Of a stretch of 64,000 bases of DNA, positions 1,483 through 64,000 are shown piece after piece (positions within the stretch are counted from its first letter, which is position 1; each line of letters opens with the position of its first letter). Source of the stretch: an uncultured Bacteroidota bacterium (GTDB lineage: Bacteria > Bacteroidota > Bacteroidia > Bacteroidales > P3); NCBI GenBank assembly GCA_902788805.1, contig CADALO010000020.1, positions 1 through 64,000 of the forward strand, in the 5' to 3' direction. Position numbers and translations under genes: made by a program. The notes beneath the pieces are model-generated. The model was given only the letters and a program-made list of their open reading frames with translations. It had not been told where the DNA came from and made no database searches.

Positions 1483-1882
1483 TAGTCAGAATATTTTCGA
1501 CCAAATGGTGACGTACACTAAATTGAACCCGTCGCGACGGATGTTCCCGTTGTTGCGGATCCCCCTCGCAGCGGATGTTCGCTCCAAGTTGTGGCGGATC
1601 TGCGCTCCGCCACATTAAACACCCTAACTCCACAAACCACACACCTTGTACCAGCCTACAGCATAGTCTCAGCGTCGGAGCAGGCAGGGACTTGCTCCGT
1701 CAGATCAACGTTACTTCAACGATACATCAACCATCCTTCGACCATCGTTTAACCATATATGATGGTCGAAATATGGTTAAAGTATGGTTTATCAATGGTC
1801 GAAATGACGGCGTTGGATGCTTGATGCCACGGCGATGAATCGACGTGGCTTGCGGGATGTGACGGGTGTGTTCCGGAAAGGG
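1483..1882. other. Spacer with hairpins and an 11-bp-period inverted repeat
   Basis: There is no credible gene here. The left part (about 1530-1615) has GC-rich imperfect hairpins, for example GTGGCGGA/TCCGCCAC. The right part holds the 11-bp-period element annotated separately. The toxin-immunity pair and the TPR gene converge on this spacer. Confidence 0.6.
1730..1816. repeat. 11-bp-period inverted repeat, core type C (ATGGTCGAAAT)
   Basis: Units start exactly 11 bp apart. On the left, ACCATCCTTCG, ACCATCGTTTA and ACCATATATG start at 1730, 1741 and 1752. On the right, ATGGTCGAAAT, ATGGTTAAAGT, ATGGTTTATCA and ATGGTCGAAAT start at 1762, 1773, 1784 and 1795. The arms are complementary in staggered blocks (TTCGACCATC/GATGGTCGAA and TTTAACCATAT/ATATGGTTAAA). 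The right flank, ATGACGGCGTTGG, resembles the outer arm of the copy at the window's right end (ATGACGGAGTTGGTCC, reverse strand). I take it as a diverged member of the family seen at 16.2, 30.4, 36.3, 46.9 and 63.9 kb. Confidence 0.7.
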
Positions 1883-10621: not shown

Positions 10622-10628
10622 AGGTTTT

Positions 10629-10975
10629 TAATGCGTTAATGTGTAAATGTGTTAATGAGTTAGTTGTTGCGTTAACGTGTAAATGTGTTAATGAGTTAGT
10701 TGTTGCGTTAATGTGGAAATGCGTTAATGAGTTAGTTATAGCGTTAGTTCTGTATTGCGTTAGTGATTCTGTTAACGAGTTAATTCGATAATTATTGTAT
10801 GAGGTTATTACGTTTTTTTACTGTTATTGATGCCGAATTCAGCATTTTGTAATTCTCTTTGAGATGGGTTGTCATTGCTCATTTTATTATTGCGTAAATG
10901 TGCTATTGCGTAAATGTCTGGAAGTGATTGCGTAGCTACTTGCGCATTAACGCAATAACACATTAGCACATTATA
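10629..10975. repeat. Spacer of short-period repeats (TTAATGCG/TTAATGTG type)
   Basis: From 10629 to about 10760 an octamer-like word (TTAATGCG, TTAATGTG, TAAATGTG, TTAATGAG) repeats. It is organised as roughly three copies of a ~36-bp block that also contains TTAGTTGT. Near 10940-10975 the same words return on the opposite strand (CGCATTAACGCA, CACATTAGCACATTA), so the spacer has repeat-bearing ends in inverted orientation. The AT-rich middle holds no gene. The infB stop lies at the right edge. Confidence 0.7.
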
Positions 10976-16187: not shown

Positions 16188-16310
16188 GGACCAACACTGG
16201 TCGTTGTACAATATATGTACAATAGTTGTACAATATTTGTACGTTTACAATTGTACAAGTATTGTACAACTATTGTACATATATTGTACAACGACCGCCG
16301 GAGTTGGTCC
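16188..16310. repeat. 11-bp-period inverted repeat, core type A (TTGTACAATAT)
   Basis: Two 41-bp arms (16202-16242 and 16253-16293) differ at one position and flank a 10-nt loop, GTTTACAATT. Each arm is built from 11-bp units: TTGTACAATAT, ATGTACAATAG, TTGTACAATAT, TTGTAC. Outside the core are GGACCAACACTGGT on the left and CCGGAGTTGGTCC on the right. The element lies between the divergent rimP and thyA genes. It is too symmetrical to be chance and carries no gene. A second type A copy with an identical loop is at the right end of the window. Confidence 0.85.
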
Positions 16311-16435
16311 CTTGCGGAGGCGAGGTGCTTCTCTGCAAGGTGTTGATTTGTAGGGATGTATTTTTATTTGCTTTTTTGCACAATTATTTTGCCAGTGGTG
16401 CGTTTATCATTCAGAATAGTATTTTTTGATAATTT

Positions 16436-17230
16436 ATGAAGCAATATCTTGACCTTTTGCAATATGTGCTTGACAATGGTGTTCAGAAGGAGGACCGCAC
16501 GGGTACGGGTACGCGCAGCGTGTTCGGCTACCAGATGCGCTTCCACCTCGACGACGGTTTTCCGCTGCTGACTACCAAGAAGTTGCACTTGCGTTCGATT
16601 ATATATGAACTGCTGTGGTTCCTCAGGGGCGACACCAATATCGGCTATCTGCACGACCATAAGGTGACAATTTGGGACGAGTGGGCCGACGCCAATGGCG
16701 ACCTGGGTCCCATCTACGGTCATCAGTGGCGCTCGTGGGGATGCGCCGACGGCGGCCATATCGACCAGATTGCGGCCCTTATCGAGCAAATCAAGAACAA
16801 TCCCGATTCGCGGCGCCTGCTGGTGTCGGCGTGGAATGTGGGCGAGATCGACAAGATGGCGCTGCCGCCTTGCCACATTCTGTTCCAGTTCTATGTGGCC
16901 GACGGGCGTCTGTCGTGCCAGCTCTACCAGCGTTCGGCCGACATTTTCCTTGGCGTGCCGTTCAACATAGCCAGCTATGCACTCTTCACGATGATGATTG
17001 CGCAGGCCACGGGACTTAAGTACGGCGACTTTGTGCACACCTTCGGCGACGCGCATATCTACAACAACCATATAGAGCAGTGCAAGCTGCAGTTGACGCG
17101 CGAGCCGCGTCCGCTGCCAACGATGCACATCAACCCCGACAAGAAGGATATCTTCAGTTTTGACTATGAGGATTTTACCCTCGAGGGCTATGACCCGCAC
17201 CCGCACATCAAAGGCGAGGTGAGCGTGTGA
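16436..17230 (+). CDS. thyA: Thymidylate synthase
   Basis: 264 residues, the E. coli ThyA length. It makes dTMP from dUMP with methylene-tetrahydrofolate. Seen are [32 protein letters not shown], the catalytic Cys in [14 protein letters not shown], and [19 protein letters not shown] with the substrate Asn. The C-terminus has the expected PHPHIKGEV. It is the first of three plus-strand housekeeping genes. No dihydrofolate reductase gene follows. Confidence 0.97.
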
Positions 17231-17382
17231 GAATGCGTGAATGTGAGAATGCGTTAATGTGGGAATGCGTTAATGCGTGAATGTGAGAGTGCGTTAATGT
17301 GGGAATGCGTGAATGTGTAAGTGTTCAGCCCTTAAAACCTTAAACCCCTAAGACCTTAAAACCCTTAAACCCCTTAAACCCG
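17231..17382. repeat. Period-8 simple repeats between thyA and manC
   Basis: Starting right after the thyA stop, about eleven 8-bp units follow one another (GAATGCGT, GAATGTGA, GAATGCGT, TAATGTGG and variants). They are followed by a different short-period tract of the CCTTAAAACC / CCTTAAACCC type that ends ten bases before the next start codon. No gene is present. Confidence 0.75.
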
Positions 17383-19958: not shown

Positions 19959-19980
19959 AAATAAGGTTAGAACCTTTTGA

Positions 19981-20644
19981 CGTGTTGAAAACACGTTATT
20001 CTATTAACCCCACACTAAGCCGAATGGCGCAGTGTGGGGTTGTGCTATCATTTGAAGGAATGCGTGCCGAAGGTACGCTACAACAATAAAATACATAATT
20101 CTTGCGTTATAATGATATGAGTTATACCACATCATATTATCATATTGTTTTTCGCACCTATTGCAGTGAACCGACAATACCAGTTGGCCACGAACGCGAG
20201 TTATATGCCTACATCTATGGTATTGCAAAGAATCTCCGTTGTCAGACTTACCGTATAGGTGGTATGCCAGATCACGTGCATATTTTTGTCTCTCTTCCTC
20301 CTGCGCTGCCACTGTCTGAGTTTGTCCAGCGAGTAAAAACTGATTCAAGCAAATGGATGAAGAATAATCCCAATTATCCGCATTTCAAGGGTTGGGGGCG
20401 CGAGTATGCAGGATTTAGCTATAGTCTACAAGACAAAGATAAAATTGTGGGTTACATTATGCGACAGAAAGAGCACCACCGCGTCGTTTCCTTTGCAGAA
20501 GAGTATCGTGCATTCCTTGAAGAGAACGGTGTGATTATTAACGACCAATACTTTCTTAAGGATGTGTAGTAGCGTGTTTTCAACACGCATTCGTAGTGTG
20601 TATCAAACACCCCACATTGCGCTCCGTTGTCGCTTAATGTGGGG
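19981..20644 (+). mobile_element. RAYT element: Y1 transposase flanked by inverted REP-like hairpins
   Basis: The transposase gene is bracketed by matching palindromes. The left side has CGTGTTGAAAACACG (19981-19995) and the hairpin AACCCCACACT/AGTGTGGGGTT (20006-20041). The right side has CGTGTTTTCAACACG (20573-20587) and CCCCACATT/AATGTGGGG (20610-20644). The two sides are inverted relative to each other; ATTCTATTAACCCCACA on the left matches the reverse strand of the right. This is the layout of REP-associated tyrosine transposases, whose hairpins are the recognised ends. Confidence 0.8.
20117..20569 (+). CDS. REP-associated Y1 (IS200-like) transposase
   Basis: A 150-residue HUH single-strand transposase. 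The HUH motif is MPDHVHIFVSLPP; the likely nucleophile Tyr lies in KIVGYIMRQKEHH. GWGREYAGFSYS before it is also typical. I chose the internal ATG giving MSYTTSYYHIVFRT, the conserved family start, over an upstream TTG. The gene appears intact. RAYTs are usually single-copy, domesticated genes that spread REP hairpins. Confidence 0.92.
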   Translation: MSYTTSYYHIVFRTYCSEPTIPVGHERELYAYIYGIAKNLRCQTYRIGGMPDHVHIFVSLPPALPLSEFVQRVKTDSSKWMKNNPNYPHFKGWGREYAGFSYSLQDKDKIVGYIMRQKEHHRVVSFAEEYRAFLEENGVIINDQYFLKDV

Positions 20645-20763
20645 TTAATAGGATAATGTGCCTCCGGCACATCTTGCTAAATGTATGGTTAATAGGATAA
20701 TGTGCTCTGGAATATCTTGCTTGATGTATGATTAATATGAGGATGTGCCTTCGGCACATTTGG
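20645..20763. repeat. Tandem ~44-bp degenerate repeat after the RAYT element
   Basis: Units begin TTAATAGGATAATGTGC at 20645 and 20689, and TTAATATGAGGATGTGCC at 20732. Each carries a small hairpin such as GTGCCTCCGGCAC, degraded in the middle copy. The tract extends the right REP-like end of the transposase element toward the next promoter. Confidence 0.65.
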
Positions 20764-28044: not shown

Positions 28045-28156
28045 TATCAACCTTTCAACGTATCAACGTATCAACGTATCAACAGTTCAACGTATCAACA
28101 TATCAACGTATCAATATATCAACGTATCAACGTATCAACGTATCAACATATCAACG
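28045..28156. repeat. Octamer tandem repeat (CAACGTAT)n between sigma and anti-sigma
   Basis: About thirteen 8-bp units run head to tail (CAACGTAT, with variants CAACATAT, CAATATAT, CAACAGTT). They end three bases before the anti-sigma ATG. Because the tract lies just upstream of the start, slippage would change leader length but not the frame. The reverse-strand version of the same octamer occurs at 53.4 kb. Confidence 0.85.
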
Positions 28157-30252: not shown

Positions 30253-30556
30253 GTCTGTTTTTGTACCCTGTGTGAGGCTGTTTTTGGCACTGTGTGTCCT
30301 GACAGGCCTTCGTGCAAGGTTTTTCCTCGCTTCTCCTCCTGTTTTCCTCCGATTCTTGTCCGCTTGTTGTCCGCTTGATGTCCGCTTGTTGTCCGCTTTT
30401 AAAGCGGACAACAAGCGGACATCAAGCGGACAACAAGCGGACAACAACCAGTGTAGTGTTGGTCCGGAGCGGAAACGGTCGGGAAACGGCGATGATTTAG
30501 CCGGTCCAATGCAATATTTTGAGCCGAATGCCGTTTTATGCTCAAAAGTTTGGACT
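30253..30556. other. Spacer holding a type B 11-bp-period element
   Basis: Besides the inverted repeat at 30356-30465 I see no gene. An open frame crosses the element into the next gene, but the palindrome is open in several frames at each copy, so this is not evidence of coding. Confidence 0.6.
30356..30465. repeat. 11-bp-period inverted repeat, core type B (TTGTCCGCTTG), copy 1
   Basis: A perfect 44-bp inverted repeat about a single central base (30400). Each arm is four 11-bp units: TTGTCCGCTTG, TTGTCCGCTTG, ATGTCCGCTTG, TTGTCCGCTTT. The right side continues into an outer arm, CAACCAGTGTAGTGTTGGTCC (21 bases, written with its two halves CAACCAGTG and GTGTTGGTCC). The left outer arm is missing or diverged. 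The core is identical to copies 2 and 3. Confidence 0.88.
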
Positions 30557-36233: not shown

Positions 36234-36340
36234 GGACCAAGACTGGTTGTTGTCCGCTTGTTGTCCGCTTGATGTCCGCTTGTTGTCCGCTTTTAAAGCG
36301 GACAACAAGCGGACATCAAGCGGACAACAAGCGGACAACA
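36234..36340. repeat. 11-bp-period inverted repeat, core type B, copy 2
   Basis: The core (36250-36338) is the same perfect 44-bp inverted repeat with one central base as copy 1. The left outer arm GGACCAAGACTGGTTG is present. The right outer arm is absent, and the core abuts CAATTATATCG of the downstream promoter region. This is the mirror image of copy 1, which lacks the left arm. Confidence 0.88.
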
Positions 36341-36392
36341 ATTATATCGTGTGCGACATAATGTTAAATAATCATAAATGTTTCACTTTTAG

Positions 36393-46824: not shown

Positions 46825-46953
46825 ATATCAACACTGGTTGTTGTCCGCTTGTTGTCCGCTTGATGTCCGCTTGTTGTCCGCTTTAAAAGCGGACAACAAG
46901 CGGACATCAAGCGGACAACAAGCGGACACAAGCGGACAACAACCAGTGGCGGT
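46825..46953. repeat. 11-bp-period inverted repeat, core type B, copy 3 with an extra unit
   Basis: The left outer arm is CAACACTGGTTG and the right one CAACCAGTGGCGG. The left arm has the four standard units. The right arm has five, the added one being 10 bp (CAAGCGGACA), so this copy is longer on one side than the 44-bp copies 1 and 2. The central base is A rather than T, which equals copies 1-2 read on the other strand. It lies between divergent sstT and the DUF4836 gene. Confidence 0.88.
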
Positions 46954-47239
46954 CTTGTAAAGGACTAAGGGATAGACAGTTATGAAGCATAGACGGTATT
47001 TTGTCATTTTGTTGGTTCTCAAGTGTTTAAGTAAGAACGGTGCAATTTTAACATTTTTTCTATTTTTGCCGATGCGGAGAATTATGATATTAATTGGATC
47101 TTTTTGAACACGGAAAACTCGGATTAACACGGATTCTTCATCCGTTCTATCCGCGCAATCCGTGTTCATTATTCAGCGTTATTCAAGGTAGACAGTCTCG
47201 GTCAGTCGGGCAAATCCATAAAGCCCCGATGGGGCGACA

Positions 47240-47690
47240 GAATATATTGTTTGATGGTGCGACACACCCGGATTGTCGATGCTCGATGGTGCGACACACC
47301 CGGATTGTCGATGTTTGATGGTGCGACACACCCCGGCCTTCGGCCACCCCTCTCCGAGAGGGGATGGGCTGCCGCATCGTTTTGATTGTCAATTTGATTA
47401 TCAATGTATCGCTGCCGCTCTCGGAGAGGGGTGGCCGAAGGCCGGGGTGTGTCGCACCAGCCGTTAAGATAACGAAGCGGTGAACGAAAACAATGGCCGG
47501 GGTGTGTCGCACCAGCCGTTCCGATAGCTAAACAGCTTAGGCTGGTGGTGTGTCGCACCGTCAAGCCAATGCCATACGTCGTTTTTCCGTCGGCCCTTCG
47601 GGACTTTTTTCTATTGCCCCGTTTCCTGCAGGGGTTGCGCTGCGCTCCACCCCTGCCTGTAATCCTTCGCCCTTTCAGGGCTTTGGAGTT
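47240..47690. repeat. GGTGCGACACACC repeat cluster, left
   Basis: Three direct units of 32 bp (GGTGCGACACACCC at 47256, 47288, 47320) lead into CCCCGGCCTTCGGCCACCCC and TCTCCGAGAGGGG. After a short centre the same modules return inverted (GAGAGGGGTGGCCGAAGGCC, GGGTGTGTCGCACC three times). Then comes a ~130-bp stretch with hairpins (GGCCCTTCGGGAC, CCCTGAAAGGGC reversed). The last ~190 bp are nearly identical, inverted, to 62985-63150. Confidence 0.8.
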
Positions 47691-49412: not shown

Positions 49413-50166
49413 ACTTCACAATCTAAAACCTAAGTATATGTCGGAATCGGAAGTTGCCGGTTCCGACATATATTTACAGCCGTCTGTCGTCTTTGAGCAG
49501 GGGCGCAGCTATCTTGTCCGCGCCCGCTCGGGCCACGGCAAGACATCGCTACTCAACTTCATCTATGGCATCAGCGGCCAGTATGACGGCGAGGTCGTTT
49601 TAACGGAGAACGGAGAACGGAGAACGGAGAGCGGAGAGCGGAGAGCGGATGGCGCGACACACCCCGCCGCTTTGTTTTTTGTTCACCGCTTCGCTACCGG
49701 AACGGCCACTGGCAGTTCCTTCTCCCCTCTCCGAGAGGGGATGGCTAACGCAAGAACCGAGAATGAGCTGCGCACGAGGGTGCTGAGCTTTATGTTTCAG
49801 GACTTGGGCCTGTTTCCGCAACTGACGGCGATGGAGAATGTGCAGCTAAAGAACCGGCTGACGGACTTCAAGAGCGACGCTGAAATTGAGGCTATGCTCG
49901 ACGCGCTGTTGCCGGAAGGCAAGAAGCACCAGCCGGTGGCGACTCTCTCGCTGGGCCAGCGGCAGCGCGTGGCGGCGGTGAGGGCATTGTGCCAGCCGTT
50001 CAAGATCATTCTGATGGACGAGCCTTTCAGCCATATCGACAGCGAGAATGCCCGCTGTGTGGCGGATATGGTTATGGGCGAGGTCGGCAGGCAGGGCGCA
50101 GGACTGATAGTCACGGCTCTGGATGCAATAGATTATTTCCCTTTCGACGTGACATATAATTTATAG
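49402..50166 (+). CDS. ABC transporter ATPase with an in-frame repeat insert
   Basis: 254 residues. Walker A is ARSGHGKTSLL (first Gly replaced by Ala). The Q-loop is FMFQDLGLFPQLT, the signature LSLGQRQRV and Walker B IILMDEPFSHID. Between GEVVL (residue ~67) and LRTRVLSFMFQ is a ~50-residue stretch, ENGERRTESGERRADGATHP and onward. Its DNA is first a GGAGAACGGAGAGC tandem repeat, then a copy of the GCGACACACCCC...CCCCTCTCCGAGAGGGG spacer repeat. LolD-like relatives have only ~15-20 residues there. The reading frame is kept, so the protein may still work. It pairs with the FtsX-like permease 3 bp downstream. Confidence 0.9.
   Translation: MRIELHNLKPKYMSESEVAGSDIYLQPSVVFEQGRSYLVRARSGHGKTSLLNFIYGISGQYDGEVVLTENGERRTESGERRADGATHPAALFFVHRFATGTATGSSFSPLREGMANARTENELRTRVLSFMFQDLGLFPQLTAMENVQLKNRLTDFKSDAEIEAMLDALLPEGKKHQPVATLSLGQRQRVAAVRALCQPFKIILMDEPFSHIDSENARCVADMVMGEVGRQGAGLIVTALDAIDYFPFDVTYNL
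49603..49746 (+). repeat. Dispersed spacer repeat inserted in the ABC ATPase gene
   Basis: A GGAGAACGGAGAACGG-type tandem tract is followed by GATGGCGCGACACACCCC, TTTGTTCACCGCTTC, GGAACGGC and CCCCTCTCCGAGAGGGG. The same blocks in the same order occur at 63150-63270, and partly at 47320-47372. The length is about 144 bp, a multiple of three. Confidence 0.8.
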
Positions 50167-53367: not shown

Positions 53368-53428
53368 TGTGTTGAATGTTGATATGTTTGTTGTTGATTT
53401 GTTGAATGTTGATACGTTGATATGTTTT
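53368..53428. repeat. Octamer simple repeat upstream of natA-like gene
   Basis: GTTGAATG, TTGATATG, TTTGTTGTTGATTTG, TTGAATGTTGATACG and TTGATATG follow each other. On the minus strand this reads CATATCAA, CGTATCAA, CATTCAAC: the same word as the octamer tract at 28.1 kb, again directly before a start codon. Confidence 0.65.
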
Positions 53429-62984: not shown

Positions 62985-63445
62985 TCGTAGCCATAGCCCT
63001 GAAAGGGCGAAGGATTACAGGCAGGGGTGGAGCGCAGCTGAACCCCTGCAGGAAACGGGGCCATAGAAAAAAGTCCCGAAGGGCCGACGGAAAAACGACG
63101 TAAGGCATTGGCTTGACGGTGCGACACACCCCCGGCCTAAGCTATTTAGCTATCGGAACGGATGGTGCGACACACCCCGGCCTTCGATTTTGTTCACCGC
63201 TTCACAATTGGAACGGCTGATGCGACACACCCCGGCCTTCGGCCACCCCTCTCCGAGAGGGGATGGCGCGGCAGCGCAACACTTTCTAATCATTGATAAT
63301 TAAAGTGATGCGGCAGCCCATCCCCTCTCGGAGAGGGGTGGCATCGACAATCCGGGGTGTGTCGCACCGTCAAGCATCGACAATCCTGAGTGTGTCGCAC
63401 CATCAAGCATCGACAATCCGGGGTGTGTCGCATTGTCAAGCTAAA
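62985..63445. repeat. GGTGCGACACACC repeat cluster, right
   Basis: 62985-63150 is an inverted near-copy of the end of the left cluster (shared: GGATTACAGGCAGGGGTGG, CCCCTGCAGGAAACGGGG, GGCATTGGCTTGACGG). Then come GATGCGACACACCCCGGCC units, CCCCTCTCCGAGAGGGGATGG and, beyond a centre near 63290, the same modules inverted. It closes with a 33-bp tandem (GGGTGTGTCGCACC + GTCAAGCATCGACAATCC, about three copies). No gene is visible. Confidence 0.8.
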
Positions 63446-63904
63446 GCATTACAATATTGTCTGTCGCCCCGTCGGGGCTTCCCTTTTAAAGTAAGAAAAA
63501 CAGCACGCAACCTCGAAAGGTTGAATCTCAATATCCCCACTCCGAGGCATCCGCTACCAAGAAGTCTTGCTAAACCCCGAAGGGGTTGACGCTCAATAAC
63601 CGTGGGTGCGGAGCACCCGCGGGACACGGCACCGGACGATACAGCACGACCCTGAAAGGGTCGCCCCAAAAGAGTCAAATGCGCAGGCAGGTGGGGCACT
63701 CCTCCAGAGTGCCATTGCTACAGCATAGGCACCGCAGGTCGGAACGACCTGCGGTTATTGATCGGTGACGCTTTCAGCGTCGTATATCCGTTCCTTCCGG
63801 GCAATCCGTGTTCAATAAAAAATCGTTCAATTCGTGTGATTCGTGTTCAAAAAACAACCCGTGTAATTCGCGTTCAAGAAACCGCCTCATCCTCATCCTT
63901 TCAA
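63446..63904. repeat. Array of small hairpins, gene-free
   Basis: Successive short palindromes with 3-5 nt loops: CCCCGAAGGGG, GGGTGC-GGA-GCACCC, GACCCTGAAAGGGTC, GGCACTC-CTCC-GAGTGCC (one base offset), CAGGTCG-GAA-CGACCTG and GACGC-TTTCA-GCGTC. After them comes an ATTCGTGTTCAA-type repeat (63805-63890) like that at 47.1 kb. No credible gene. Confidence 0.6.
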
Positions 63905-64000
63905 GGGACCAACTCCGTCATATGTACAATACTTGTACAATACTTGTACAATATTTGTACGTTTACAATTGTACATATATTGTACAACTATTGTACAAAT
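63905..64000. repeat. 11-bp-period inverted repeat, core type A, copy 2 (cut by window end)
   Basis: The left outer arm is GGGACCAACTCCGTCAT. Units are ATGTACAATAC, TTGTACAATAC, TTGTACAATAT and TTGTAC, then the loop GTTTACAATT, identical to copy 1 at 16.2 kb, then the inverted units to the window edge. The order of unit variants differs between its arms, so it is less perfectly paired than copy 1. Confidence 0.8.

Follow-up and report, generated by a model that had tools for sequence, protein, structure and literature searches.

Why do palindromes scattered between the genes of one bacterium keep the same 11-bp step, the same mirrored layout and related outer ends, while the words that they repeat differ? 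The question arises from the window, a 64,000-nt stretch (C20:1-64000) of the 2.73-Mb genome of an uncultured Bacteroidales bacterium (25 contigs, G000). A sequence-only reading of this DNA had pointed out six loci in which 11-bp units stand in tandem and are then followed by their reverse complement. All six are present, and the last of them, cut by the window end, is complete in the contig beyond position 64000 (L056).

Six palindromic loci in the window

The palindromes and the end modules joined to two of them are as follows.

1697..1810, strand not assigned: degenerate 11-bp palindrome of type E (TTCAACCATAC / GTATGGTTGAA) with outer ends CCGTCA...TGACGG; hairpin scan at a looser setting, 55-nt arms, period 11, z 7.3
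16188..16311, plus strand: type A palindrome of TTGTACAATAN units with loop GTTTACAATT, from the hairpin scan; left outer arm GGACCAACACTGGT at 16188-16201, right outer arm CGCCGGAGTTGGTCC ending at about 16311
30353..30465, strand not assigned: type B palindrome of TTGTCCGCTTG units; core 30353-30447, right outer arm ACCAGTGTAGTGTTGGTCC only
36234..36345, strand not assigned: type B palindrome; left outer arm GGACCAAGACTGGT only, at 36234-36247, core 36247-36341
46825..46950, minus strand: type B palindrome with both outer arms, the right one diverged (CCAGTGGCGGTC), and an extra partial unit at the right
46951..47100, minus strand: extended end module joined to the type B copy (CTTGTAAAGGACTAAGGGATAG...GGTTCTCAAG...)
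63879..63904, plus strand: extended end module of a type A copy (AACCGCCTCATCCTCATCCTTTCAAGG)
63905..64000, plus strand: type A palindrome truncated at the window end

A hairpin scan that makes no use of a known sequence detected only five strong hairpins in the window (score of at least 20), and the best period was 11 in all five. Locally shuffled DNA of the same genome (203 kb) gave no hairpins at a score of 16 or higher. Perfect stems of type B measure 43-47 bp with a loop of 1, and those of type A 44 bp with one mismatch and a loop of 10, which slightly adjusts the 41-44 bp originally proposed. Predicted RNA folds of the A and B loci reach z-scores of -15 to -18; for 1690-1818 the z-score is -5.4. 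Searches of Rfam with the window and seven element loci returned only tRNAs at gathering score, and no curated RNA family matches the elements.

The window contains several other intergenic repeats. Arrays of 8-bp words (TTAATGTG, CCTTAAAA, TATCAACG, TGTTGATA), mostly lacking an inverted partner, lie at 10628-10784, 17226-17381, 28045-28156 and 53370-53426, and a nearly perfect 7-bp tandem array (AACGGAG, 6.9 copies) at 49602-49649. Two clusters of other palindromic repeats (47140-47690 and 62991-63850), containing 32/33-bp GTGTCGCACC arrays, CCCCTCTCGGAGAGGGG and CGCCCCGTCGGGGC, each end in an 11-bp palindrome; they are 92% complementary to one another over 272 nt, in opposite orientation.

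Copy number, words and regularity across the genome

From a sample of 456 kb of the same genome (the window and 20 stretches picked around elements) and 136 small loci, we recovered 106 distinct elements with at least five words, 52 of type A, 44 of type B and 10 others. The three core words first described were therefore too few: type C (TTGTCCAGTYG) and type D (TTGTCCGNTTG; TTGTCCGTTTG / TTGTCCGATTG) are further cores of this genome, and at least three copies of type E lie in the sampled DNA (the 1697 locus, L156:18906 and L162:4178). Genome searches with two units in tandem, mismatches allowed, produced 146+139 matches for TTGTCCGCTTG and 192+162 for TTGTACAATAN, compared with 0 and 1 for reversed control patterns. 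BLAST scoring covered 40 of 55 B candidates and 40 of 66 A candidates. Several contigs end in an 11-bp palindrome or within about 500 bp of one (C4:1-93, C14:102231-102323, C18:50-97, C12:347-444), so copy numbers drawn from short-read assemblies are probably too low. One palindrome (L160:11895-11967) is an A/B chimera. Flanked by the standard outer arms, its units run A A B B A' A' B' B', and in single-stranded form, whether RNA or DNA, its two pairs of arrays would interleave in a pseudoknot-like manner.

The spacing of the units is highly regular. The step from one unit to the next is exactly 11 bp in 463 of 470 cases (225/229 in type A, 238/241 in type B), and the arms carry mostly four units in type B (65 of 84 arms) and mostly three exact units in type A. 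When periods from 5 to 16 were scanned in the 456 kb, all 55 period-11 arrays had an inverted partner within 160 bp, as against one of the 22 arrays of other periods; of the mirrored arrays in this genome, 55 of 56 thus have period 11. The stretches had been selected for holding elements, which inflates the density of the arrays; that mirroring goes with period 11 is not a product of this selection. Layout (11-bp, mirrored) and wording seem to evolve separately.

The units are usually bounded on both sides by outer arms of the form (G/T)ACCAAC(A/T)C(C/T)GG-T(C/T)G, with (G/T)ACCAACWCYGG present at both sides in 69 of the 106 copies. Each outer arm lies in register with the array as a fifth 11-bp unit with another word. 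Words A, B, C and D and the chimeric copy have these arms in common, which extends the earlier claim of related outer arms in A and B to copies across the genome, although the arms are incomplete at three window loci (30353, 36234 and 46825). One side often continues into AACCGCCTCATTTCCAGnCCTTCAAGG in type A or TTGAAAACCAA...TTCCTTAGnCCTTTACAAG in type B. By BLAST, the module at 46951..47100 is 73-84% identical to its counterparts in other B copies and 72% identical to that of one A copy, with 84% over 173 bp for G000:C20:46928-47100.

All 106 elements lie outside genes, even though 83% of the sample is coding according to a simple gene caller. Among the 85 copies with both neighbours visible, the flanking genes are in tandem for 42, divergent for 26 and convergent for 17, and this mixed orientation rules out a role as transcription terminators. 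The window loci have unremarkable neighbours, namely rimP and thymidylate synthase, a short-chain dehydrogenase and glutathione peroxidase, a dicarboxylate symporter and a DUF4836 protein, and a TPR protein. The 16188 element was not found at the orthologous rimP-thymidylate synthase gap of congeners, which fits an insertion in this lineage, and a loss elsewhere would fit too.

Relatives in the genus

Across 41 genomes, the type A word was found in this genome only, and B-like words occur in the congeners G002, G012 and G009 and, weakly, in G024. A sequence-independent scan that took in about 0.7 Mb of congeneric DNA showed that the mirrored 11-bp design recurs with other words: ACGGTAGTATT (six copies and one fetched earlier), GTTCGACTTGA and TTGTTCTTCGG in G012, ACCAACWCCGT and TTTCAACGTTA in G002, CTACCAACTCC in G009 and TTCTCCGCTAT in G024. 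The sequence-only reading had tied the reality of the family to outer arms shared by genome-wide copies and to an 11-bp period kept in other cores. Both are found, the period in many other words here and in congeners, and the phenomenon is broader than was first stated.

Some of these words are related. The centre GCTTTTAAAGC is common to type B, the G012 word ACGGTAGTATT, in which the ends are CCTCCGCCATTTTA, and the G024 word, and the outer-arm word of the present genome is the repeated unit in G002 and G009. The shared centre and the use of the outer word as a unit elsewhere agree with a common descent in which the middle words were replaced. In tandem arrays it is the units at the edge that escape homogenisation, and from this comparison of words the outer arms are probably the remains of an older array that has kept its edge and lost its original middle.

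Periods of 10 and 12 bp are nearly absent from the congeners and are never mirrored there, and inverted arrays of periods 7, 8 and 9 do occur. In G002 (L306-L311), many mirrored 7-, 8- and 9-bp arrays have loops of 13-19 nt, several of them with a GCGnnAGCC-like sequence. Elsewhere in Bacteroidales, direct period-11 arrays without a partner are present, and no mirrored period-11 arrays were detected in 1.4 Mb around thymidylate synthase genes. As far as sampled, the mirrored design is limited to one uncultured Bacteroidales genus. A literature search, largely of sources outside subscription, returned no description of mirrored repeats of 11-bp units.

Variation within elements and a proposed mechanism

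In type B, arms are more alike within a copy than between copies (1.34 as against 1.77 mismatches over 44-bp arms, p 0.0005). Rare outer variants of type B are mirrored, with identical outer arms in 7 of 23 cases where 1.6% would be expected, and private variants occur on both arms of single B copies. This arm-to-arm likeness is absent from type A (p 0.34-0.95), so that the mechanism need not be the same in A and B. In type A, the inner TGTACAATA is fixed and the spacer bases vary. All four combinations are seen in 15 of 36 pairs of variable sites (spacer variants, loop type, left and right outer arms), which requires exchange between copies or recurrent change. Three of four elements in G002 combine one nearly uniform arm with one mixed arm, a pattern that would arise if the spread of units began within a single arm. 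Across six B copies the inner 36-bp arms show 98% identity, whereas the attached flanks share 73-84% by BLAST (a lenient aligner, with a random baseline of 0.67, was uninformative here). The B core is thus either homogenised or held by selection, and its identity could reflect purifying selection.

The sequence-only reading had proposed that period and symmetry are selected while the sequence is free to change. The pattern itself holds in this genome and in its congeners, but selection as its cause went beyond the evidence. Period and symmetry can be maintained by copying of units within an arm, copying from arm to arm and recombination among copies, and the one-sided arms of G002, the reassorted arm variants of type A and the mirrored rare variants of type B favour such copying processes. 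The reading that we prefer, with about even confidence, is that the elements are MITE- or REPIN-like intergenic palindromes under concerted evolution. Each arm strings together about four 11-bp units in tandem and closes with the unit ACCAACWCYGG, which is probably older. Slippage or unequal exchange within an arm would let one unit overwrite its neighbours, which would preserve the period, and mirror symmetry would be restored by arm-to-arm copying at the hairpin or by recombination between copies. The former could proceed through template switching, a published process by which hairpins are perfected (PMC8794818). Recombination among copies, together with dispersal by a putative trans-acting enzyme, would then carry a word to dozens of sites. 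Slippage alone leaves the scarcity of periods 10 and 12 and the constant number of units unaccounted for, which counts against concerted evolution.

Probable mobility and comparison with known repeat systems

Strong matches to the left-end motif in the sampled DNA lie beside elements only, so the motif is part of the element, and its interpretation as an independent insertion target was rejected. At no offset were target-site duplications commoner than in shuffled pairs. The outer-arm matches listed for this genome show only the short spacing of the palindromes and include no autonomous element with these ends, and no partner transposase carrying the ends was found. As had been stated before, no enzyme gene of this kind adjoins the loci; an IS200-type TnpA gene (20117-20569) lies 3.8 kb from the 16188 locus. 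It is one of three Y1_Tnp genes in the genome and is flanked by its own repeats, which are unrelated to the palindromes. The TnpA gene lies in a segment (19979-20759) with inverted sequence at its flanks and, downstream, three direct repeats of 43 bp. BLAST against plasmids and phages gave no match, and low-complexity filtering may mask queries of this type. With no target duplication, no partner transposase and Y1 genes whose presence among congeners does not track the elements, mobility is inferred, and the elements are probably mobile.

Several described systems share part of this design. The BrickBuilt MITE of Porphyromonas gingivalis also comes from Bacteroidales and is an intergenic, multi-copy minisatellite within short inverted ends, but it has 23-nt head-to-tail units in one direction, 19 copies, one word and ends that match known insertion sequences (PMC4596501). 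The present elements have mirrored 11-bp units, more than 100 copies, several words and no matching insertion sequence that we could find, and they lack the 23-nt unit with leader and tail modules. REPINs and REP/BIME sequences are likewise intergenic inverted hairpin pairs in many dispersed copies, REPs being imperfect palindromes of 20-40 bp tied to RAYT genes (PMC3116915). Here the intergenic multi-copy hairpin is present, but each arm is a tandem array, the Y1 proteins of the genome are IS200-like and there is no RAYT gene flanked by REPs. Template-switched hairpins resemble our elements in their mirrored double changes and near-perfect arms; they have been described for RNA genes rather than for genome-wide tandem-unit palindromes, and the corresponding signal appears here in type B only (PMC8794818). 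The TAACTGA heptamers of Beggiatoaceae are intergenic arrays of one short 7-bp word in direct tandem, as opposed to mirrored 11-bp units with several words (PMC4679880).

Alternative explanations

MITE families moved by one enzyme normally share their ends and differ inside, so the earlier statement that swapped cores under similar flanks are not what a MITE gives was too strong. Ordinary MITEs, that is, internally deleted relatives of an insertion sequence with one transposase reading the outer arms and with incidentally repetitive interiors, would explain the common ends with differing interiors, the more than 100 dispersed non-coding copies with terminal inverted repeats and their absence from orthologous sites of congeners. 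We consider this explanation doubtful. A target-site duplication, which is usual in MITEs though not universal, is lacking, as is an autonomous element with these ends among the matches listed, and between species the outer arms differ while the 11-bp interior design stays, the reverse of what MITEs predict. REPINs moved by a REP-associated tyrosine transposase (RAYT) would likewise be palindromic, intergenic and present in more than 100 copies in a genome with three Y1_Tnp genes. These Y1 proteins score 53-83 bits with the IS200/IS605 model (cut-off 55) and only 25 bits with the RAYT model (cut-off 80), and with the window TnpA beside its own repeats and the lack of tracking in congeners, a RAYT as mobiliser is unsupported and the chance of it slight. 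A role of the transcripts is hardly more probable: they would form 44-58 bp of double-stranded RNA in 11-base steps, one A-form turn each, to be processed by RNase III or bound by a protein. The very stable predicted folds agree with this, but any perfect DNA palindrome folds in this way, gene orientation is mixed and no RNA family matches. Accidental look-alikes among simple repeats, or plain terminators, are the least probable of all. Inverted arrays of periods 7, 8 and 9 in congeners would be in line with accident, but the outer arms in common, the number of copies, the near-exclusive period 11 in this genome and the mixed gene orientation refute it for types A and B; isolated weak loci, for example some of those in G012 and G002, may be of this kind.

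The main rival to concerted evolution is selection on an 11-bp protein-binding geometry. The word would be a binding site, and eight sites 11 bp apart on one helix face, in two mirrored arrays, would make an iteron-like nucleoprotein site serving as a chromosome organiser, a decoy for phage initiators or a remnant origin; period and symmetry would be selected, and words would shift when the binding protein shifts. The near-invariant step, the restriction of mirroring to period 11 and the constant inner TGTACAATA of type A beside variable spacers speak for such a site, as do viral sequences. The B/C/D word, read on the other strand as GGACAACAnnn, forms three direct 11-bp repeats in 19 viral contigs (L357-L375), which are all the contigs matched, and in 19 of 19 the array lies inside an open frame, in the linker of an initiator-like protein of similar sequence (for example L357:3746-3783 and L358:255-284). 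The two viral proteins that were profiled match DnaD-like helicase loader families. Two shuffled control words gave no viral matches, and the triple GGACAACAnnn is missing from 394 other Bacteroidia genomes. Direct arrays within initiator genes resemble the replication-origin iterons of phages. The phage arrays share the 11-bp step and the TTGTCCNNNTG word with B, C and D, but they are direct and coding, with one array per contig and no hairpin, and the type A word has no viral match. The present arrays, for their part, are mirrored and have ordinary genes as neighbours, unlike origin iterons, which are directly repeated within an initiator gene or next to it. The word may be shared by chance, or such initiator proteins may have sites in the palindromes; the match was noticed after the fact and is therefore given low weight. 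Moreover, a genome with many unrelated words would require numerous readers, and no reader gene was found. On balance, we regard the binding-site explanation as possible but unlikely.

Two further observations concern viral DNA. Some of the viral arrays are followed by short AT-rich direct repeats. The G012 word ACGGTAGTATT occurs in a non-coding hairpin in two IMG/VR contigs (L376:1438-1462 and L377:12838-12862); either phages carry the elements, or the two contigs are DNA of the host.

Implications

A more speculative and quite improbable extension of the binding-site explanation is that the heritable trait is the geometry itself (11-bp step, about four units, mirrored), the word being a replaceable cassette read by proteins of the replication-initiator type. 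If this were true, the host would carry more than 100 mirrored iteron arrays matching, and perhaps titrating, phage initiators, with words swapped as phages change. Whatever maintains the design, the layout is constant and the words vary, both within a genome and from one genome to another, and therefore sequence-based repeat recognition misses this class. With more than 100 natural replicates per genome, the elements lend themselves to the study of palindrome symmetry and of the homogenisation of tandem units in bacteria, and they raise the question of why the period is 11, given the near-absence of neighbouring periods.
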